In this document: positions 53,197 to 64,000 of the stretch, one piece after another
Numbering within the stretch: position 1 is the first letter of the stretch
Layout: each line of letters begins with the position of its first letter
Source of the DNA: Actinotalea alkalitolerans
Lineage (GTDB): Bacteria; Actinomycetota; Actinomycetes; Actinomycetales; Cellulomonadaceae
Direction of reading: 5' to 3'
DNA: 64,000 nucleotides
Assembly (NCBI RefSeq): GCF_023369855.1
Contig: NZ_JAMBPP010000006.1
Span: forward strand, 62,001 to 126,000
Translations under genes and position numbers: made by a program
Notes under the pieces: model-generated
The model's input: the letters and a program-made list of their open reading frames with translations, nothing else
Databases searched by the model: none
What the model was told of the DNA's origin: nothing

Positions 53197-53246
53197 TTGC
53201 GTCGCGTCGTACGGTCCTCTATCTTCATGAGGCAAGCCTCACCTAA
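53197..53246 (+). promoter_or_regulatory. Promoter with DtxR/IdeR-type iron box
   Basis: TTGCGT (53197-53202) and TATCTT (53220-53225) are 17 bases apart. Directly after the -10, TGAGGCAAGCCTCACCTAA (53228-53246) matches the DtxR/IdeR 19-bp consensus TTAGGTTAGCCTAACCTAA at 15 positions. An iron-loaded repressor bound here would cover the transcription start. Confidence 0.75.
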
Positions 53247-53310
53247 CGCCCGACCCGGGTGGTCATGCCCCGGCGGCGAGGCGGAGCACCCGACGACGAA
53301 CGGATCCCCC

Positions 53311-54351
53311 ATGCGCGCATCGCGCCTCTTCACGACCGCCACGGCCGTGGCCGCCCTGAGCATCCTCGCCGCCTGCGGCTCGACCGGGGAGGCCGACGTC
53401 GACGCGACGGCCGAGCCCACCTCGGCCGCGCAGGAGGGCGTGTTCCCGGTCACGATCCCGCACGCGTTCGGTGAGACCACCGTCGACGCGCAGCCGGTGC
53501 GCGTGGCCACGGTCGCCTGGTCCAACCACGAGGTGCCGCTCGCACTGGGCATCGTCCCGGTGGGCATGGCCGCGGCGACCTGGGGCGACGACGACGACAA
53601 CGGCGTGCTGCCCTGGGTCGAGGACGCTCTCGCCGAGCTCGGTGCCGAGCTCCCCGTGCTGTTCGACGAGACCGACGGGATCGACTTCGAGGGCGTCGCC
53701 AACACCCAGCCCGACCTGATCCTGGCGACCTACTCGGGGCTGACCGAGGAGGACTACGCCACGCTCTCGTCGATCGCGCCGACGATCGCCTACCCCGAGG
53801 TCGCCTGGGGGACCTCGCACCAGGACATGATCACGATCAGCTCCGCGGCCCTGGGGATGGCCGAGGAGGGCGAGGCCCTGGTCGCCGACCTCGACGCCCA
53901 GGTCGCCGAGGCGCTGGCCGCCAACCCCGCGCTGGACGGCGCGAAGGTGCTGTTCTCGTACATCGACCCCTCGGACTTCAGCCAGATCGGCTTCTACACC
54001 AGCCACGACACCCGCCCGGGCTTCCTGCTCGACGCGGGCCTGCCGATGCCGGCCGTGGTCGAGGAGGAGACCGCCGGGACCGACGCCTTCTACGTGACGG
54101 TCTCGGCCGAGGAGGCCGACCGGTTCGACGACGTCGACCTGTTCGTCACCTACGGCGACGCCAGCAGCGACATCGTGGCCCAGCTCCAGGCCGACCCGCT
54201 GCTGTCCACGATCCCCGCGATCGCCGAGGGCCGGGTGGCGGTGCTCGAGAACTCCACACCGCTGGCGGCCTCGGCCAACCCGTCGCCGCTCTCGATCGGG
54301 TGGGGTGTCCAGGACTACCTCGCGCTGCTCGCGGCACCGCTGGCCGACTAG
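53311..54351 (+). CDS. Iron-siderophore ABC transporter substrate-binding lipoprotein
   Basis: A 346-residue lipoprotein: signal helix, lipobox ILAAC near residue 22, then a FecB/FhuD-type periplasmic-binding fold (about 50-340) with VATVAWSNHEVPLALGIVPV, FEGVANTQPDLILATYSGLT and the final LSIGWGVQDYLALL. Two lobes joined by a long helix are expected, the type-III class that binds ferric siderophores or haem. First gene of a four-gene importer operon, three bases before the permease start. Siderophore type unknown. Confidence 0.93.
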   Translation: MRASRLFTTATAVAALSILAACGSTGEADVDATAEPTSAAQEGVFPVTIPHAFGETTVDAQPVRVATVAWSNHEVPLALGIVPVGMAAATWGDDDDNGVLPWVEDALAELGAELPVLFDETDGIDFEGVANTQPDLILATYSGLTEEDYATLSSIAPTIAYPEVAWGTSHQDMITISSAALGMAEEGEALVADLDAQVAEALAANPALDGAKVLFSYIDPSDFSQIGFYTSHDTRPGFLLDAGLPMPAVVEEETAGTDAFYVTVSAEEADRFDDVDLFVTYGDASSDIVAQLQADPLLSTIPAIAEGRVAVLENSTPLAASANPSPLSIGWGVQDYLALLAAPLAD

Positions 54352-54354
54352 ACG

Positions 54355-55440
54355 ATGGTCGCGGTCCACGCGCCGGAGGTCACCGGCCTGCCACGCCCAC
54401 CGTCCGGGCGTCGGGGAACCCCCCGCGGTCGGACGGTGGGCGTCCGGCTGGCCGTGCTGGCACTCGTGCTCGGGCTGCTCGGGCTCGCGGTGCTGGCCTC
54501 GGTCGCGTTCGGCACCCGTCCGGTCAGCCTGGCCGAGGTGTTCTCGGCGCTCACCGGGACCGGTGGGCTCGGCGAGGGCTCGGTCGTGGCCGAGGCCGCG
54601 GTGCGCCAGCGCATCCCGCGCACCGTGCTCGCGATGATCATCGGTGCCTCGCTGGCGATGGCGGGCGCCGCGATGCAGGCGGTGACCCGCAACCCCCTGG
54701 CCGACCCGGGCATCCTCGGGGTCAGCGGCGGGGCCGCGCTCGCCGTGGTCGTCGGGATCGTCTTCTTCGGCGTGACCGGACCGGTCGGCTACATCGTGAT
54801 GGCGATGGGCGGTGCCGCGGCCGCGGCCGTCCTGGTCTACACGATCGGTTCGCTCGGCCGCGGCGGCGCGAGCCCGCTCAAGCTCGCCCTCGCGGGCGCG
54901 GCGATGTCGGCCGCCTTCACCTCTCTGGTCAGCGCGATCCTGCTGCCGCGGGTCGACGTGATGGTCACCTTCAGGTTCTGGCAGATCGGCGGGGTGGGCG
55001 GGGCCCAGTGGGAGCGCATCGGGGCGGTCGCGCCGTTCCTCCTGGCCGGGGCGGTCCTGGTGGTGGGGATGGCCAGCGCGATGAACTCGCTCGCGCTCGG
55101 CGACGACCTGGCGGTCGGGCTCGGGGTGCGCGTGGCGCGGACCCGGCTGCTCGCCTCGGTCGGCGCCGTCGTGCTGACCGGGGCTGCGACCGCGATCGCC
55201 GGGCCGATCGGCTTCGTCGGGCTCGTGGTCCCGCACGCCGTCCGGCTCCTGGTCGGACCCGACCACCGGTGGCTGCTGCCGATCTCCGCGCTGGCCGGGG
55301 CGGCGCTGCTCACCGCGGCGGACGTCGTGGGCCGGGTCGTGGCCCGGCCGGCGGAGATCGAGGTCGGGATCATCACCGCCCTGATCGGCGCACCGGTGTT
55401 CATCGCGTTGGTCCGCCGGCTCAAGGTGCGTGAGCTGTGA
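54355..55440 (+). CDS. FecCD-family siderophore permease, subunit 1
   Basis: A 361-residue membrane protein with about ten helices. Family blocks: VRQRIPRTVLAMIIGASLAM, GAAMQAVTRNPLADPGILGV and ATAIAGPIGFVGLVVPHAVR with the coupling-helix Gly. Pairs with the next gene to form the heterodimeric pore of the iron-siderophore importer. Confidence 0.95.
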   Translation: MVAVHAPEVTGLPRPPSGRRGTPRGRTVGVRLAVLALVLGLLGLAVLASVAFGTRPVSLAEVFSALTGTGGLGEGSVVAEAAVRQRIPRTVLAMIIGASLAMAGAAMQAVTRNPLADPGILGVSGGAALAVVVGIVFFGVTGPVGYIVMAMGGAAAAAVLVYTIGSLGRGGASPLKLALAGAAMSAAFTSLVSAILLPRVDVMVTFRFWQIGGVGGAQWERIGAVAPFLLAGAVLVVGMASAMNSLALGDDLAVGLGVRVARTRLLASVGAVVLTGAATAIAGPIGFVGLVVPHAVRLLVGPDHRWLLPISALAGAALLTAADVVGRVVARPAEIEVGIITALIGAPVFIALVRRLKVREL

Positions 55441-56477
55441 CCGCGGTCCTGACCACGACCTCCGTGGTGGTCGCCGGTCGTGCGCGCCGAGGAGCGCGGC
55501 GCCGGCGCGTCCTGGTGGTCCTCGCCGTGGTGGCGCTCGCCCTGCTGGCCGCGTCCCTGCTCGCGGGCACCACCTACCACCCGCCGGCGGACGTGCTGAG
55601 GGCGCTGGCCGGGGAGAACATCCCCGGGGCGAGCTTCGCCGTCCGTGAGCTGCGGCTGCCGCGCGCGGTGACCGGGCTCGCGGTCGGGCTCGCCTTCGGC
55701 GTGGCGGGCACGGTGTTCCAGACGATGCTGCGCAACCCGCTCGCCGCCCCCGACGTCATCGGGATCAGCTCGGGCGCGAGCGCGGCCGCGGTGTTCGGGA
55801 TCGTCGTGCTGTCGCTCGGCGACACCGCGGTGGCGCTGCTCGCCCTGGGCGGAGGGCTCACCACCGCCACGTTGATCTACCTGCTGGCCGTCCGGCAGGG
55901 GTTCGCCGGGACGCGGCTGATCCTGATCGGCATCGGGATGGCGGCGATGCTCGACTCGACCGTCACCTACGTGCTGAGCCGCGCCTCCCAGTGGGACCTG
56001 CAGGCGGCGATGCAGTGGTTGGCCGGGAGCCTCAACGGGGCGAGCTGGTCGCGCACCCTGCCGCTCCTGCTCGCCCTCGCCGTCGGTCTGCCGCTGATCG
56101 CCGGCCAGGCCAGGAACCTGCAGCAGCTCCGCCTCGGCGACGACGCCGCCGCCGGGGTGGGCGTGCCGGTCGACCTCACCCGCCTGGTGCTCATCGCCAC
56201 CGCGGTGACCCTGCTCTCGGTCGCCACCGCGGCCGCCGGACCGATCGCCTTCGTCGCCTTCATGGCCGGCCCCATCGCGGCCCGGCTGATCGGGCAGGGC
56301 GACTCGCCCGTCCTCGCTGCCGGGATGGTCGGAGCGATCCTCGTGCTGGCCGCCGACCTGGTCGGGCAGCTCGCGACCGGCACGCGCTACCCGGTCGGTG
56401 TCGTGACCGGCGTGCTCGGCGCGCCGTACCTGCTGTACCTGCTCGTGCGCACGTACCGGACCGGAGGAGCACTGTGA
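55437..56477 (+). CDS. FecCD-family siderophore permease, subunit 2
   Basis: A 346-residue second permease. ELRLPRAVTGLAVGLAFGVA, FQTMLRNPLAAPDVIGISSG and AAGPIAFVAFMAGPIAARLI match the FecCD pattern. GTG start overlaps the first permease stop (GTGA). It ends RYPVGVVTGVLGAPYLLYLL, the usual terminal segment. Confidence 0.95.
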   Translation: MTAVLTTTSVVVAGRARRGARRRRVLVVLAVVALALLAASLLAGTTYHPPADVLRALAGENIPGASFAVRELRLPRAVTGLAVGLAFGVAGTVFQTMLRNPLAAPDVIGISSGASAAAVFGIVVLSLGDTAVALLALGGGLTTATLIYLLAVRQGFAGTRLILIGIGMAAMLDSTVTYVLSRASQWDLQAAMQWLAGSLNGASWSRTLPLLLALAVGLPLIAGQARNLQQLRLGDDAAAGVGVPVDLTRLVLIATAVTLLSVATAAAGPIAFVAFMAGPIAARLIGQGDSPVLAAGMVGAILVLAADLVGQLATGTRYPVGVVTGVLGAPYLLYLLVRTYRTGGAL

Positions 56478-57373
56478 CCGACGAGAGCGAGAACCTGCGG
56501 CCCAGGCACGACCTGCGGGCCCAGGACGTGACCCTGGCCTACGGGGATCGCGTCGTGGTGCGTGATCTCGACCTGGCCGTCGTGCCCGCCGAGGTCACGG
56601 CCGTGGTCGGGGCGAACGGCTCGGGCAAGTCGACCGTGCTGCGCGCCCTGGCCCGGCTCCTGTCGCCCGCGTCCGGGCAGGTGCTGCTCGACGGCAAGGA
56701 CCTGCACCGGCTCCCCACCCGTGAGGTGGCGCGCACGCTCGGGCTGCTCCCGCAGAGCCCGGTGGCCCCCGAGGGCATCGCCGTGGCCGACCTGGTCGGT
56801 CGCGGTCGTCACCCGCACCAGCGGTTCCTCGCCCCGTGGTCGGCTGCCGACACCGCCGCCGTGGCCGACGCGCTCGACGTGACCGGCACCGCCGACCTGG
56901 CCGACCGCAGCGTCGACGAGCTGTCCGGCGGGCAGCGTCAACGGGTGTGGCTGGCCATGGTGCTCGCCCAGCAGACCGACATCCTGCTGCTCGACGAGCC
57001 GACCACCTTCCTCGACGTCGCCCACCAGGTCGAGGTGCTCGACCTGCTGACCGACCTCAACCGCGACCGCGGCACCACGGTGCTCATGGTGCTGCACGAC
57101 CTCAACCTCGCAGCCCGCTACGCCGACCGGCTGGTCACGGTGTGCGACGGGCGGGTGCACAGGGTGGGGACCCCCGATGAGGTGCTGACCGTCGAGACGG
57201 TGCGTGAGGTGTTCGGGCTCGAGGCCCACGTCATGCCCGACCCGATCACCGGCCGACCGCTCGTGCTGCCGCTCGGTCGGCACGCCCGCCTCGCGCGCTC
57301 CGAACAGCTGCCGGAGATCCCCCCGGTCACGGTCGAGGGACGCGTCGCCGCGCAGGCACCACCCTCGACCTGA
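56474..57373 (+). CDS. Iron-siderophore ABC transporter ATP-binding protein
   Basis: A 299-residue FepC-type ATPase. Walker A is VGANGSGKSTVLRAL, the Q-loop follows in LGLLPQSPVAPEGIAV, the signature is VDELSGGQRQRVWLAM, Walker B is ILLLDEPTTFLDVAHQ and the switch His is in VLHDLNLAARYADR. GTG start overlaps the upstream stop. A C-terminal tail of about 30 residues is extra. Last gene of the operon that starts at 53311. Confidence 0.96.
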   Translation: MTDESENLRPRHDLRAQDVTLAYGDRVVVRDLDLAVVPAEVTAVVGANGSGKSTVLRALARLLSPASGQVLLDGKDLHRLPTREVARTLGLLPQSPVAPEGIAVADLVGRGRHPHQRFLAPWSAADTAAVADALDVTGTADLADRSVDELSGGQRQRVWLAMVLAQQTDILLLDEPTTFLDVAHQVEVLDLLTDLNRDRGTTVLMVLHDLNLAARYADRLVTVCDGRVHRVGTPDEVLTVETVREVFGLEAHVMPDPITGRPLVLPLGRHARLARSEQLPEIPPVTVEGRVAAQAPPST

Positions 57374-58192: not shown

Positions 58193-59398
58193 TCACGCGC
58201 GACGTGCCGTGGTCCTGCCCGAGGTGGGCTCCGGACGATCCGTGACGATGTCGGTGAGCTCCATCTCGGCGTAGACGAACGTTCCCTCGGGCTCCGGGGC
58301 GTGCCACAGCGCGCGTGCCGAGCCGGCCAGGCGACGGCCGTCGGACTGCGCGAACCCGCCCACCGGCGTGGACCAGCGCATCGGCGTGAAGGACCGTCCG
58401 TCGGGGGAGGCGCGCAGACGGTCGTCGGACACGAAGTCCCGCAGGTCGCCCTCGGCATCGACGACGAGCACCGCGCTGACCTCCTGCCCGCCGGTGCGGT
58501 AGGTGCCTCGCACGCGCCGGTCGTCGAGCTCCTCCCACGTCACGGGGGCGTCGACGAGCGCGGCGGGCGCGAGAAGGCACAGGTCGTTGAACAGGGTGAC
58601 GGTCTCGCCGCGGTCCATCTCCGCGCCGGCGCCCCGGACCACCGGGATCACCGAGAGCAGACGCGCCTGCATGGTGGCCGTGCCGTCGGTGAGCACGTGC
58701 AGCACGTCGATCGGGAGCCCGGCACGGGTCGCGTCGAGCAGGAAGTGGCGCGTGGGTCGCTCGCCGTAGGTGTTCACCTGCTCCCCGGTGAAGGTCATCC
58801 ACGGCTCGTCGGGTCCGCCGCGGATCCGACCACGCAGCCTCACGCGCACGCGGCTGACGCGCGGCCTGCCCACCGCGCCGGTGCGGCGGACGTACCGGGC
58901 GACCACCGGGGGCAGCCTGTCGACGTCGGCGTCGCTGACCGGGCTGGACGGGGTCGGTTCGTCGCGGGACGCCGCGACCCCGGTGCGGTACCGGCCGCGC
59001 AGCGACCGTGGGCTCGCGCACCACCACCCGTGCAGGACGGCGAGCAGGAGCGCGGCGTCGGGGAGCAGCGCTGGTGCCGGGGCGGGCCAGTGGGTGGCGA
59101 CCAGAGCGAGTGAGCCTGCCGCCGCCACGGCACCGAGCTGCCACCAGCGGGGCCGGCCGGCCAGCAGGGCCGTCCCCGCTGCGACGGTGATGGCAGCGAC
59201 GGCGAGCCAGGCCCATCCGCCGACCGTCGTGACCTCGAGCTCGCTCGTGGAGGTCCACCCCAGGCCGGCGGCGGCGCCCAGCAGGTGCACACCTCCGTGC
59301 GCCACGACGAGCGCTCCGAGGACGACCCGGACGGTGCGGCGCACGGGACCCCTCGTCCCGGGCGTCGGCCTCCTCGGCACGGATGCTGAGCCGCTCAT
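58193..59398 (-). CDS. DUF6544-type membrane protein
   Basis: A 401-residue protein. Four membrane helices fill about 22-125, followed by a soluble part of about 250 residues (VSDADVDRLPPVVARYVRRT, TFTGEQVNTYGERPTRHFLL, GETVTLFNDLCLLAPAALVD, WSTPVGGFAQSDGRRLAG). The soluble part matches a widespread family of unknown function (DUF6544/DUF6920), likely a beta-barrel lipid- or membrane-facing domain. ATG at 59398 overlaps the MarR stop (ATGA), so it is under the MarR regulator. Confidence 0.8.
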   Translation of the reverse strand: MSGSASVPRRPTPGTRGPVRRTVRVVLGALVVAHGGVHLLGAAAGLGWTSTSELEVTTVGGWAWLAVAAITVAAGTALLAGRPRWWQLGAVAAAGSLALVATHWPAPAPALLPDAALLLAVLHGWWCASPRSLRGRYRTGVAASRDEPTPSSPVSDADVDRLPPVVARYVRRTGAVGRPRVSRVRVRLRGRIRGGPDEPWMTFTGEQVNTYGERPTRHFLLDATRAGLPIDVLHVLTDGTATMQARLLSVIPVVRGAGAEMDRGETVTLFNDLCLLAPAALVDAPVTWEELDDRRVRGTYRTGGQEVSAVLVVDAEGDLRDFVSDDRLRASPDGRSFTPMRWSTPVGGFAQSDGRRLAGSARALWHAPEPEGTFVYAEMELTDIVTDRPEPTSGRTTARRA

Positions 59399-59853
59399 CG
59401 GGCTGCGCTCCGATTCAGAGTTCCGAGACAGCGGTCGATCAGCTGCTCGAAGGTCGCGAGCTCGGCGTCCTCGAGGGTCGCGAACACGCCGGCGACGACC
59501 TCCTGCTGGTGACGGGCGGCCTCGGGCGCGTCGAACGTCCCGGAGACCAGCGGCGTGACGGCGAGCCTGGTCGCACGGCGGTCGCGGGGGTCCGTCTCGA
59601 GCTCGACCAGACCACGTGCGGCGAGCTGGAGCGCGATCTGCTTGACGTTCTGACGTGAGGTGCCGTAGGCCGCGGCGGTCTCGGAGAGCGTGGGCCGTTC
59701 CCCGGGGAACCCGCGCACCAGCACGGCGAGCAGCAGCCACTGCCGGGCGGTCACGCCGTAGCGTTCGAGCGCGTCGTCGGCGTAGCGGTTCAGGTGCTGC
59801 CCGAGCACGAACAGCGCACCGAACAGCCGGGCCTCGACGGGGGAGCGATCCAT
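59395..59853 (-). CDS. MarR-family transcriptional regulator
   Basis: A 152-residue winged-helix repressor. GVTARQWLLLAVLVRGFPGE, TLSETAAAYGTSRQNVKQIA and the wing VELETDPRDRRATRLAVT are standard MarR elements. ATG at 59853 lies only four bases from a GTAAT-GT-ATTAC inverted repeat, so it probably represses its own operon with the DUF6544 gene. Its mRNA may be leaderless. Confidence 0.92.
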   Translation of the reverse strand: MDRSPVEARLFGALFVLGQHLNRYADDALERYGVTARQWLLLAVLVRGFPGERPTLSETAAAYGTSRQNVKQIALQLAARGLVELETDPRDRRATRLAVTPLVSGTFDAPEAARHQQEVVAGVFATLEDAELATFEQLIDRCLGTLNRSAAR

Positions 59854-60053: not shown

Positions 60054-63000
60054 GTGATCAACCAGGACGTCACCGTGCAGGGGGCCCTGCGCGCCGGTCA
60101 TCGCGCCCCCGCCCCCCGCACCCTGATGGACGTGTTCACCGCGACCGTGGAGCGCCACCCCGATGCCGTCGCGATCGACGACGGTGACGAGGTGCTCACC
60201 TACACGGCGCTCGCCGAGGCCGTCGGGCTGCGTGCCGCTCAGCTGTCGGCCGCAGGGGTGGGACGCGGGGACTGGGTCGGCGTGCGCGCGACCTCGGGCA
60301 CCGTAGGGCTGTACCTGTCGATCCTGGCGGTGCTGCGCGTCGGTGGTGCCTACGTACCCGTCGACGCGGACGACCCCGACGAGCGGGCCCGTCGGGTGTT
60401 CGCCGAGGCCGACGTCGCCGCGGTGATGGGCGACGGGCTCGAGGTCCTCGGGCCGGACGGGCGCCCCGGCTCCGGCCGGCCCGCCACCGCTCCCTCTCTC
60501 GGTGCGCCCCGGCCGAGCGGGCCCGGTCCGGACGACGACGCCTGGGTCATCTTCACCTCGGGCTCGACCGGGACGCCCAAGGGCGTCGCTGTCACGCACC
60601 GCAGCGCGGCCGCGCTGGTCGACGCCGAGGCACGGCTGTTCCTGCAGGGTTCGCCGATCGGCCCCGGCGACCGGGTGCTCGCGGGGCTGTCGGTGGCCTT
60701 CGACGCCTCGTGCGAGGAGATGTGGCTGGCGTGGCGGCACGGTGCGGCCCTCGTCCCGGCCCCGCGTGCGCTGGTCCGGGCCGGCAGCGAGCTCGGCCCC
60801 TGGCTCGTCGAGCGCGAGATCACCGTGGTGTCGACCGTCCCCACGCTGGCGGGCATGTGGCCCGTGGACGCCCTGGACGGCGTGCGGCTGCTCATCTTCG
60901 GTGGCGAGGCGGTCCCGCCCGAGCTCGCGGTCCGGCTGCACGCGCCGGGACGGGAGGTCTGGAACACCTACGGGCCGACCGAGGCGACCGTGGTGACCTG
61001 TGCCGCCCTCCTCGAGCCCGACGAGCCCGTGCGGATCGGGCTGCCCCTGGACGGCTGGGACCTGGCGGTCGTGGACGCCGAGGGGCAGGAGGTCCCCGAG
61101 GGCGGGTCGGGAGAGCTGATCATCGGGGGAGTCGGCCTGGCCCGCTATCTCGACACCGCGCTCGACGCCGTGAAGTTCGGCCCGTCGGCCACGCTCGGCT
61201 GGGACCGCGCGTACCGCACCGGCGACCTGGTCGAGAGCCACCCCGAGGGACTGGTCTTCCTGGGCCGGGCCGACGACCAGGTCAAGGTCAACGGCCACCG
61301 GATCGAGCTCGGCGAGGTCGAGACGGCACTGCAGTCGCTGCCCGGCGTGGCCGCCGCTGCCGCCGCCGTGCGGCACTCACCGACCGGGGCGGGACTCCTG
61401 GTCGGCTACGTCGTTCCCGACGGCTCGACCACCCTCGACCGGGCCGACCTGCTGGGCCGCCTGCGCGACGAGCTCCCGGCGACCATGGTCCCGGTGCTCG
61501 CGGTCGTCGAGGGCATCCCGACCCGCACCTCGGGGAAGATCGACCGCGACGCCCTGCCGTGGCCGATCGACGGGCTCGGGGACCCGGGCGCGGGCTCGAC
61601 CCTGCACGGCACGCAGGCCTGGGTGGGCGAGCAGTGGGCTGCGGTCATCGGCGTGCACCCCACCGACGCCGCCGACGACTTCTTCGCCCGCGGTGGGAGC
61701 TCGCTGACCGCGGCGCAGCTGGTCTCGGCACTACGGGTCCGGTACCCCCAGGTCACGGTCGCCGAGGTCTACGACCACCCGACCGTCGGCGACCTCGCAG
61801 CGCACCTGGGAGCGCGCTGGCCGCAGGCCACCCAGGACCCGGCCCCCGAGGGACCCGCCCGGCTGGTCCGCCCCGTGCCTGTCGGCAGCCAGGTCGCCCA
61901 GCTGCTGGCCCTCGTCCCGTTGCGCACGCTCGTCGGCCTGCGCTGGCTGACTGCGCTCGCGGCGGTCAACGCCCTGCTCGACGGCGTGTGGGGGGTGCCC
62001 TGGGCGGTGCCTGTCCCGTGGTGGTGGGCGCTCGCCGGGTGGGTGGTCACGGTGAGCCCCCTGGGGCGGATGGGGGTCACCGCGCTGGGTGCGCGGCTGC
62101 TGCTGCTGGGGGTGACCCCGGGCTCGTACCCCCGTGGTGGTGGGGCGCACCTGCGGCTCTGGGCCGCCGAGCAGCTCGCGGCGGGCTTCGGGGCGATCAC
62201 CCCGGCCAGTGCACCGTGGGTCGGTCTGTACGCGCGTGCGCTGGGCGTACGGATGGGGCCCGGTGTCGACCTGCACTCGCTGCCGCCGGTCACCGGGATG
62301 CTCACGCTGGGCCGCGAGTGCGCGGTCGAGCCCGAGGTCGAGCTGTGCGGGTACTGGGTGGACGGGGACGTCGTCCACCTCGGGCACATCACCGTCGGCG
62401 CGCGCGCCACCGTGGGTGCCCGGAGCGTGCTGTACCCCGGGGCGCACGTGGGCCAAGGCACAGACGTCGCGGCGGGATCGGCCGTGCACGGCGCGACGGG
62501 AGAGGCGGAGTACTGGACCGGGTCGCCGGCGACCAAGGCCCACGAGGCCCGTCACCCGTGGCCGTCCGACCGTCCGTCGACCTCCGCGAGGTCGGCGGTC
62601 TGGGTCGTGGGCTACGCGTCGGTCGGCACGGTGGTCGCCGGCCTGCCGGTGGTCGCCGTGGGCGCCGCGCTGCTGGTCGTGGGAGCGGCCGTGCGGGAGA
62701 CGGCGACGCTCACCCAGGCGGTCGGCGCCGCTCTGCTCGTCGCCCCCGCGGCGACCCTGGGCGCCTACGCGCTGTACGCCGTGCTGGTCGTCGGCAGCGT
62801 CCGCCTGCTGGGGCGCGGGCTCGAGCCGGGCTACCACCCGGTGCGCTCGCGCGCGGGCCTCCAGGCGTGGTCGGTCCAGCGACTCATGGACGCCGCACGC
62901 ACGAGCCTGTTCCCGGTCTACTCCTCGGTGGCGACCTCGTCGTGGCTGCGCCTGCTCGGAGCCGAGGTGGGCCGCGGCACGGAGATCTCGACGGTGATCG

Positions 63001-64000
63001 GCCTGCCGAGCATGATGCGGCTCAAGGACGGCGCCTTCCTCGCGGACGACACCATGGTCGCCCCCTACGAGCTGGGCGGCGGCTGGGTCCGGGTGGCCTC
63101 GGCCAAGGTGGGCCGGCGAGCCTTCGTCGGCAACTCCGGCATGACCGCTCCGGGCCGCACGGTGCCCAAGAACGGTCTGGTCGCCGTCCTCTCGGCCACA
63201 CCGCGGCGCACCAGCGCGGGCTCGAGCTACATCGGCAGCCCCCCGGTCCGGCTGCCCCGTGCCGCGGTGCTCGATGACCCGGGCCGCACCTACGACCCGC
63301 CGCGGCGGCTGCGCGTGGCCCGCGGGCTGGTCGAGGTGTGCCGCGTGGTCCCGGCACTCGTCGTCGGTCTGCTCGCGCTCGCGACGCTGCTCACGCTGCA
63401 GGCCGTCGTCGTCGCCGGCGGGTGGGGCCTGGGAGCGGCCTTCGGGGGCGTGGTGCTCCTGGGCACAGGTGTGGTCGCGGCCGGGGTCACGGTGGCCGCG
63501 AAGTGGGCGCTCGTGGGGCGGTTCCGGGTGGGAGATCACCCGCTGTGGAGCCCCGCGGTGTGGCGTGGTGAGCTGGCTGACACCTTCACCGAGATGGTCG
63601 CCGCCCGGTTCTTCGCCGACGTCGTGAGCGGTACTGTCGCGCTGGTGTGGTGGCTTCGGGCGATGGGTGCGCGGATCGGCCGTGGCGTGTGGTGCCAGAC
63701 GTACTGGCTCCCCGAGGCGGACCTGGTCCGGCTCGGCGACGGCGCGAGCGTCGGACCAGGGTGCGTGGTGCAGACCCACCTCTTCCACGACCGCGTGATG
63801 AGCCTGGACACGGTGACGCTCGACGACGGTGCGACCCTCGGGCCGCACGGCGTGATCCTGCCGGCCGCGAGCCTGGGCGCTGGTGCCAGCGTGGGACCGG
63901 CGTCGCTGGTCCTGCGCGGTGAGCGCGTCCCGGCGGGCTCACGGTGGGTCGGCAACCCGATCGCCCCGTGGCCGGTCGCGCCGGACCCGGTGCCGGTGTG
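60054..64000 (+). CDS. Poly-lysine-synthetase-like NRPS, 3' end outside window
   Basis: 1315 residues are visible and the frame runs off the right edge. An adenylation domain (about 20-520) carries FTSGSTGTPKGV, TYGPTEA, YRTGDL and TSGKIDRDALP. The ten specificity positions, aligned to GrsA, read D-A-E-S-I-G-T-V-V-K, like codes for lysine. The carrier domain follows with FFARGGSSLTA (phosphopantetheine on Ser550). Then come three pairs of membrane helices (about 614-686, 845-925, 1090-1155), each followed by a hexapeptide-repeat-like (LbH) soluble domain. This is the layout of epsilon-poly-L-lysine synthetase (Pls, about 1319 aa). There is no classical condensation or thioesterase domain. GTG at 60054 follows AGCAGGAGC. 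Confidence 0.82.
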   Translation, partial: MINQDVTVQGALRAGHRAPAPRTLMDVFTATVERHPDAVAIDDGDEVLTYTALAEAVGLRAAQLSAAGVGRGDWVGVRATSGTVGLYLSILAVLRVGGAYVPVDADDPDERARRVFAEADVAAVMGDGLEVLGPDGRPGSGRPATAPSLGAPRPSGPGPDDDAWVIFTSGSTGTPKGVAVTHRSAAALVDAEARLFLQGSPIGPGDRVLAGLSVAFDASCEEMWLAWRHGAALVPAPRALVRAGSELGPWLVEREITVVSTVPTLAGMWPVDALDGVRLLIFGGEAVPPELAVRLHAPGREVWNTYGPTEATVVTCAALLEPDEPVRIGLPLDGWDLAVVDAEGQEVPEGGSGELIIGGVGLARYLDTALDAVKFGPSATLGWDRAYRTGDLVESHPEGLVFLGRADDQVKVNGHRIELGEVETALQSLPGVAAAAAAVRHSPTGAGLLVGYVVPDGSTTLDRADLLGRLRDELPATMVPVLAVVEGIPTRTSGKIDRDALPWPIDGLGDPGAGSTLHGTQAWVGEQWAAVIGVHPTDAADDFFARGGSSLTAAQLVSALRVRYPQVTVAEVYDHPTVGDLAAHLGARWPQATQDPAPEGPARLVRPVPVGSQVAQLLALVPLRTLVGLRWLTALAAVNALLDGVWGVPWAVPVPWWWALAGWVVTVSPLGRMGVTALGARLLLLGVTPGSYPRGGGAHLRLWAAEQLAAGFGAITPASAPWVGLYARALGVRMGPGVDLHSLPPVTGMLTLGRECAVEPEVELCGYWVDGDVVHLGHITVGARATVGARSVLYPGAHVGQGTDVAAGSAVHGATGEAEYWTGSPATKAHEARHPWPSDRPSTSARSAVWVVGYASVGTVVAGLPVVAVGAALLVVGAAVRETATLTQAVGAALLVAPAATLGAYALYAVLVVGSVRLLGRGLEPGYHPVRSRAGLQAWSVQRLMDAARTSLFPVYSSVATSSWLRLLGAEVGRGTEISTVIGLPSMMRLKDGAFLADDTMVAPYELGGGWVRVASAKVGRRAFVGNSGMTAPGRTVPKNGLVAVLSATPRRTSAGSSYIGSPPVRLPRAAVLDDPGRTYDPPRRLRVARGLVEVCRVVPALVVGLLALATLLTLQAVVVAGGWGLGAAFGGVVLLGTGVVAAGVTVAAKWALVGRFRVGDHPLWSPAVWRGELADTFTEMVAARFFADVVSGTVALVWWLRAMGARIGRGVWCQTYWLPEADLVRLGDGASVGPGCVVQTHLFHDRVMSLDTVTLDDGATLGPHGVILPAASLGAGASVGPASLVLRGERVPAGSRWVGNPIAPWPVAPDPVPV

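Follow-up and report, generated by a model that had tools for sequence, protein, structure and literature searches.

A probable epsilon-poly-L-lysine synthetase gene overlapping an M1 peptidase gene in Actinotalea alkalitolerans

The stretch of DNA analysed here, hereafter the window, comprises 64,000 nucleotides of the 4.37 Mb genome of Actinotalea alkalitolerans, a member of the Cellulomonadaceae (G000:C32:62001-126000), and carries at its right edge a complete gene for a synthetase of the Pls/PosA family. In our view this gene is very probably an epsilon-poly-L-lysine synthetase gene (pls). It makes up a two-gene unit together with a gene for a PldII-type M1 aminopeptidase, which overlaps it and is probably coupled to it in translation. 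On this assignment, the known pls-peptidase pair is extended to the Cellulomonadaceae. The features of the unit are the following.

60054..64000, + strand: pls-type gene, 1315 amino acids; GTG start at 60054, TGA stop at 63999-64001 with its final base outside the window
60135..61538, + strand: adenylation (A) domain, residues 28-495, with the lysine-type pocket DAESIGTVVK (PF00501 and PF13193); 66% identical to the A domain of Streptomyces albulus Pls
61620..61808, + strand: single carrier (thiolation) domain, residues 523-585 (PF00550)
61881..62546, + strand: repeat 1, helix pair and beta-helix C1, residues 610-831 (AlphaFold2; a hydropathy scan raised no flag here)
62592..63254, + strand: repeat 2, helix pair and beta-helix C2, residues 847-1067; Asp998 is invariant (AlphaFold2, alignments)
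63279..63968, + strand: repeat 3, helix pair and beta-helix C3, residues 1076-1305; Glu1173, Glu1221 and His1242 are invariant and Asp1246 nearly so (AlphaFold2, alignments)
63777..63779, + strand: codon for His1242, which lies in the QTHLFHD loop and is proposed as the catalytic base; conserved in 103/103 and 58/58 sequences and aligned to ATHP of galactoside acetyltransferase
63998..64000, + strand: start (GTG) of the gene for an M1-family peptidase, the probable PldII counterpart (PF01433 and PF17900; 449 amino acids), which runs on to G000:C32:127347 (L004:6999-8348)

Synthetase family and substrate pocket

The reading frame is intact and complete, with a third-position GC content of 0.93, and a look beyond the right edge, as advised by the initial annotation, placed the TGA stop one base past the window. 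The architecture that had been read there from the letters, namely an A domain, one carrier domain, three helix pairs alternating with left-handed beta-helix domains and no thioesterase, was borne out by Pfam, TIGR02353 and AlphaFold2. Pfam placed PF00501 at residues 28-364, PF13193 at 421-495 and a single PF00550 at 523-585, and no condensation or thioesterase domain was among the four Pfam hits of the synthetase, an arrangement typical of Pls/PosA enzymes. The suggested search against TIGR02353 (Pls/PosA family non-ribosomal peptide synthetase, NRPS) gave 666 bits against a cut-off of 423.1, covering the whole profile (1-695) over residues 614-1303 in the C-terminal part. The gene is a complete member of the Pls/PosA family.

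The A-domain pocket makes a strong case for lysine as the substrate. Its code, DAESIGTVVK (D217, A218, E221, S260, I281, G283, T305, V313, V314, K495), was taken from alignment columns, and the code read earlier by hand proved correct. The best match in the Protein Data Bank (PDB) was the A domain of the S. albulus epsilon-poly-L-lysine synthase (7wew; E 1.1e-190, 66% identical), whose pocket is the same at 10/10 positions. As a control, the identical columns were taken from a posA-type gene of Acinetobacter and gave DMEHNGTVSK, the published code of PosA (PMC10522769; this and the other papers cited are drawn on as excerpts). The same source associates Ala at the second pocket position with lysine, Met with ornithine and Phe with shorter diamino acids, and reports that the M218A exchange in PosA raised the efficiency with lysine nearly tenfold. 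Among the 80 closest named relatives, which are the best 80 of at least 595 matched stretches, 592 of them encoding relatives, and thus closest matches rather than a random sample, DAESIGTVVK was found in 79 and DAESIGTVIK in one. In a 52-row tree, built by a quick method and with the long-branch rows L150 and L153 of unsure place, the window synthetase lay within a large lysine-code clade holding near-orthologues of S. albulus Pls, and five DFE-code rows formed a separate branch. Since a Pls-family enzyme is combined here with a lysine-type pocket, a cationic homo-isopeptide is predicted, as the initial annotation had proposed, with epsilon-poly-L-lysine as the best product call.

A synthetase of another diamino acid, yielding poly-ornithine, poly-diaminobutyrate, poly-diaminopropionate or epsilon-poly-beta-lysine, would have the same family and architecture, and A-domain codes can be degenerate (PMC10522769). 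However, the second pocket position holds Ala, the lysine signature underlined by the M218A effect, rather than the Met of PosA, with which 6/10 positions are common, or the Phe associated with diaminopropionate and diaminobutyrate polymers. The code reported for epsilon-poly-beta-lysine, DGESISVVNK (PMC10522769), differs as well, the DFE-code rows branch apart, and the A domain is 66% identical to that of S. albulus Pls versus ~36% to that of the posA-type gene. We therefore regard such a product as very unlikely, and the poly-ornithine or poly-diaminobutyrate option of the initial annotation is disfavoured by both code and tree. PosA of Acinetobacter baumannii, which makes delta-poly-L-ornithine, belongs to the same family, and the posA-type gene keeps the same invariant residues in the membrane half, but PosA differs in pocket code and A-domain identity and is reported as a single-gene operon (PMC10522769).

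Apart from these relatives, L180:5051-9187 (+) may be a chimera, in which a lysine-code A domain (59% identical to that of the window) is fused to a membrane half of divergent sequence (23%); in the tree it pairs with L153 outside the lysine-code clade.

The overlapping peptidase gene

A poly-lysine-degrading peptidase had been suggested as something to look for past the right edge, and an M1 peptidase gene was indeed found directly downstream, its start codon overlapping the pls stop codon within the letters GTGA. The encoded protein carries the zinc motif HELAH-18-E. At 10 Streptomyces loci of the S. albulus type, whose A domains share 74-93% identity with 7wew, an M1 peptidase gene follows directly in 9/10, with 40-43% identity to the present one. 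By position and homology, the M1 peptidase is the probable counterpart of PldII; the GTGA overlap and the homology to the peptidases of S. albulus-type loci are those of an operon with a PldII-type peptidase. Translational coupling to pls has been described for the S. albulus pldII gene (PMC9223678), and a pls-peptidase operon has been reported for Streptomyces and Corynebacterium variabile (Jiang et al., PMC8117764), so the gene arrangement itself is already known. The S. albulus and C. variabile systems share with the present one the domain order and the overlapping peptidase gene, and near-orthologues of S. albulus Pls fall in the same tree clade, but the host here belongs to the Cellulomonadaceae, the product is a predicted one, and the nearest S. 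albulus-type locus (L189) shows ~55% whole-protein identity.

Among the 80 closest named relatives, all with a lysine code, the peptidase gene lies within 300 nt in 75/80 and within 4 kb in 80/80. A second set of 50 genome regions, chosen partly for weak matches, contained 35 fused synthetases, the other regions having split, partial or no fused genes. Here 26 synthetases had a lysine code, of which 20 had an adjacent peptidase gene, one had it ~2.2 kb on and five had none within 4 kb; with a DFE code, the gene was adjacent in 0/9, and 4/9 had an M1 gene ~0.95 kb on. A third set comprised 44 short loci overlapping the other sets, with 42 lysine-code loci having the gene adjacent, one lysine-code locus without it and one DFE-code locus without it; the peptidase-less short locus L054 comes from the genome of L170, whose longer region has the gene 2.2 kb on. 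The DFEY-code synthetases L146, L147, L149 and L151 have an M1 peptidase, 35-37% identical, ~0.95 kb downstream, so a peptidase partner may not be confined to the lysine-type synthetases.

Membrane half, proposed mechanism and points against the assignment

AlphaFold2 modelled residues 595-1315 with a pLDDT of 94.3 and a pTM of 0.93, from an alignment of 103 rows (102 relatives added). The model contains three like repeats, in each of which a long helix pair is followed by a strand, then by helices and finally by a left-handed beta-helix; six predicted transmembrane helices separate three tandem soluble domains. Helix pairs two and three were also flagged by a simple hydropathy scan, and pair one was left unflagged; that pair one is also a membrane pair is supported by the model and the family. 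The initial annotation would have given up its poly-lysine reading on a neutral specificity or on missing Pls-like tandem domains, and neither was seen, the code being lysine-type and the repeats three.

Across the 103 aligned membrane halves, with rows down to 22% identity and some from proteins without their own A domain, the invariant charged or histidine residues were Asp998, Glu1173, Glu1221 and His1242, and Asp1246 was kept in 102/103. His1242 was the only invariant one among 13 histidines of the membrane half (the next best occurred in 84, 83 and 82 of 103), and C1 and C2 hold no invariant His. In a second set of 58 sequences, including Acinetobacter, Sphingomonas, Rhizobium and Azospirillum, Trp703, Asp998, Glu1173, Glu1221 and His1242 were invariant and Asp1246 was present in 57/58. 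A weak match of C3 to galactoside O-acetyltransferase (27.5 bits) placed QTHL..FHDR on ATHPLNFHHR, and the ATHP His aligned with His1242 is presumably the catalytic His of the acetyltransferase. Because His1242 is the sole invariant His and aligns, if weakly, with this loop His, the data suggest one polymerising site in C3 with a catalytic His1242. According to the NeuO structure paper, a catalytic His, carried on a loop that leaves the helix, is common to all crystallised left-handed beta-helix acyltransferases (PMC3046976).

Extended to all Pls/PosA enzymes, the proposal would be that only C3 is catalytic, that His1242 and Asp1246, perhaps joined over the pseudo-threefold interface by Asp998 from C2, form a single acyltransferase-type site making every isopeptide bond with any diamino acid, and that C1 and C2 are structural or chain-guiding. 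We judge the arguments for and against this generalisation to be evenly balanced; if it is true, the polymerisation step could be tested with a few point mutants. In comparison with the left-handed beta-helix O-acetyltransferases LacA, Maa and SACOL2570, the synthetase has its beta-helices fused in threes with membrane helices, and it would draw its acyl group from an aminoacyl thioester on the carrier domain instead of from acetyl-CoA. No solved structure of the membrane half was present among 38 PDB sequences or the best 60 of 144 matches, all being single beta-helix proteins. Structure comparisons of the model, one of them covering mainly model residues 73-336, likewise gave single acetyltransferase-type or carbonic-anhydrase-type proteins in the 50 rows listed, and the best matches of a profile search against solved structures fell mostly on C1 rather than C3. 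The excerpt of PMC10522769 names no catalytic residue of the membrane half, which does not show that none has been published.

The mechanism that we propose would start with adenylation of L-lysine by the A domain, Asp217 holding the alpha-amine and Glu221 the epsilon-amine, and with loading of the lysine as a thioester onto the carrier domain, itself made active by a phosphopantetheinyl transferase (PPTase), probably the product of the gene three positions downstream. In the third beta-helix, His1242 would then deprotonate the incoming epsilon-amine, which would attack the thioester of the next lysine, so that the membrane half would build and export a cationic isopeptide, and the peptidase would trim or destroy polymer staying with the producer.

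The PPTase gene lies in the extended locus:

L004:9130-9912, opposite strand to pls: phosphopantetheinyl transferase gene, three genes downstream of pls

The genome has two genes of the PPTase superfamily, one of them beside pls, and a whole-genome search for the condensation-domain family gave no match. From these two results we infer that the synthetase is probably the only NRPS-type assembly line of the genome and that the neighbouring PPTase is probably the activator of its carrier domain. The link is backed by a Sphingomonas plasmid (L199:1181-5742, +), where the end of a Pls/PosA gene with the code DMEHNGTVTK overlaps the start of a PPTase gene.

Several observations weigh against the assignment. 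A similar PPTase gene is found in the flanks (up to 4 kb) of only 8/80 closest named loci, and the catalytic role of His1242 would follow from conservation and a weak 27.5-bit alignment. The excerpt of PMC9223678 calls PldII a metallopeptidase and does not name M1, gives as modelled zinc residues D44, T45, D173 and K174, which are not an M1 motif, and places PldII outside the membrane; a hydropathy scan found no clear membrane segment in the window-locus peptidase. According to a review, inactivation of Pld and PldII left production and chain length unchanged (PMC8506220), at odds with a change in chain length after pldII repression (PMC9223678). The M1 gene is missing within 4 kb at 5/26 lysine-code loci of the 50-region set, of which L150 and L180 have less than 4 kb of downstream sequence (for L180, none was found in 2.5 kb), and from the flanks of two plasmid-borne lysine-code Pls genes, L203:2246-6124 (+) of Rhodococcus opacus and L204:938-4927 (+) of Streptomyces viridifaciens. 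Because of these loci, and of the DFE-code loci with an M1 gene ~0.95 kb on, peptidase adjacency as proof of a lysine code was rejected as too strong; coupling to an M1 peptidase accompanies the lysine code in many, not all, of the actinobacterial loci examined. Finally, the own culture of C. variabile gave no product, which appeared only in S. coelicolor with the gene driven from the S. albulus promoter (PMC8117764); the window pls gene may likewise be silent.

Taken further, this would mean a decayed or silent gene without product, in line with the C. variabile culture and with a patchy presence in the family (11/37 sampled genomes over the TIGR02353 cut-off). Yet the frame is intact, all invariant residues and the overlapping peptidase gene are kept, and identity to near relatives reaches ~80%, which makes decay or silence highly improbable.

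Lineage, possible role and neighbouring genes

The initial annotation had placed such a polymer in a lineage not noted for it, a view that the counts did not support. TIGR02353 matches over cut-off occurred in 105/394 sampled genomes of the class, so the lineage is ordinary for the family, and Pls-type genes have been published for coryneform actinobacteria, the Cellulomonadaceae being absent from the genera list in the excerpt of PMC8117764. Poly-lysine as a novelty of the lineage was accordingly dropped, the family being common across the class and the pls-pldII pair published. Among 59 relatives, the own genome included, 16 were over the cut-off; in the own family a twelfth genome, G004, has fragments on two contigs. 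Among the matches listed, the closest named synthetases were those of Actinotalea soli (80% identical), Cellulomonas telluris (76%), Cellulomonas cellasea (73%) and Georgenia (72%); genome G018 (L011) and A. soli are nearly equal, with 80.7% and 80.2% for the synthetase and 71.4% for both peptidases. A literature search of partial coverage found nothing linking Cellulomonas with a poly-L-lysine NRPS. Such clusters are named NAPAA by antiSMASH and described as similar to epsilon-poly-L-lysine (PMC10745605).

Split relatives were also observed, at L164:3932-9849 (-) and at L155, L157, L162, L163 and L165-L169, where the carrier and membrane half have no A domain and stand beside a separate A-domain protein. 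At L164, checked with Pfam, this partner consists of A, carrier and thioesterase domains. The code of the separate A-domain protein read DIWQSTADDK, in a region of weak alignment.

As to role, the polymer might serve the producer's surface, adhesion or the binding of other molecules rather than antimicrobial attack, which would be compatible with poly-lysine synthesis. The family is widespread, and biofilm was slightly increased in a posA knockout (PMC10522769), but those polymers of the family that have been characterised act as antimicrobials (PMC8117764, PMC10522769) and no identified gene points to the surface, and we consider this role unlikely. The phage defence suggested earlier found no backing, PADLOC giving 0 matches for the synthetase, the peptidase, the PPTase and the MarR-type gene; two weak matches to PDC-M28B both fell on the ParA-like neighbour, and a defence role was rejected.

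Two further neighbours flank the unit:

59395-59853, - strand: MarR-type regulator gene, divergent from pls; its sole NCBIfam match is below the model's cut-off
L004:8398-9147: ParA-like gene, downstream of the peptidase gene

Neither was retained as part of the system: the MarR-type gene, considered as a pls regulator, was without a match in the 80 closest named loci (tblastn, 1e-8), and the ParA-like gene was present in 1/80. On the Rhodococcus opacus plasmid pROB01, an annotated MarR-family gene stands just upstream of the Pls gene. Window positions 53197-57373 hold genes of an iron-siderophore type ABC transporter, with binding protein and ATPase matches below cut-offs and two apparent permeases from the list of open reading frames; with no condensation-domain match in the genome, the transporter may serve to take up siderophores that other organisms produce.

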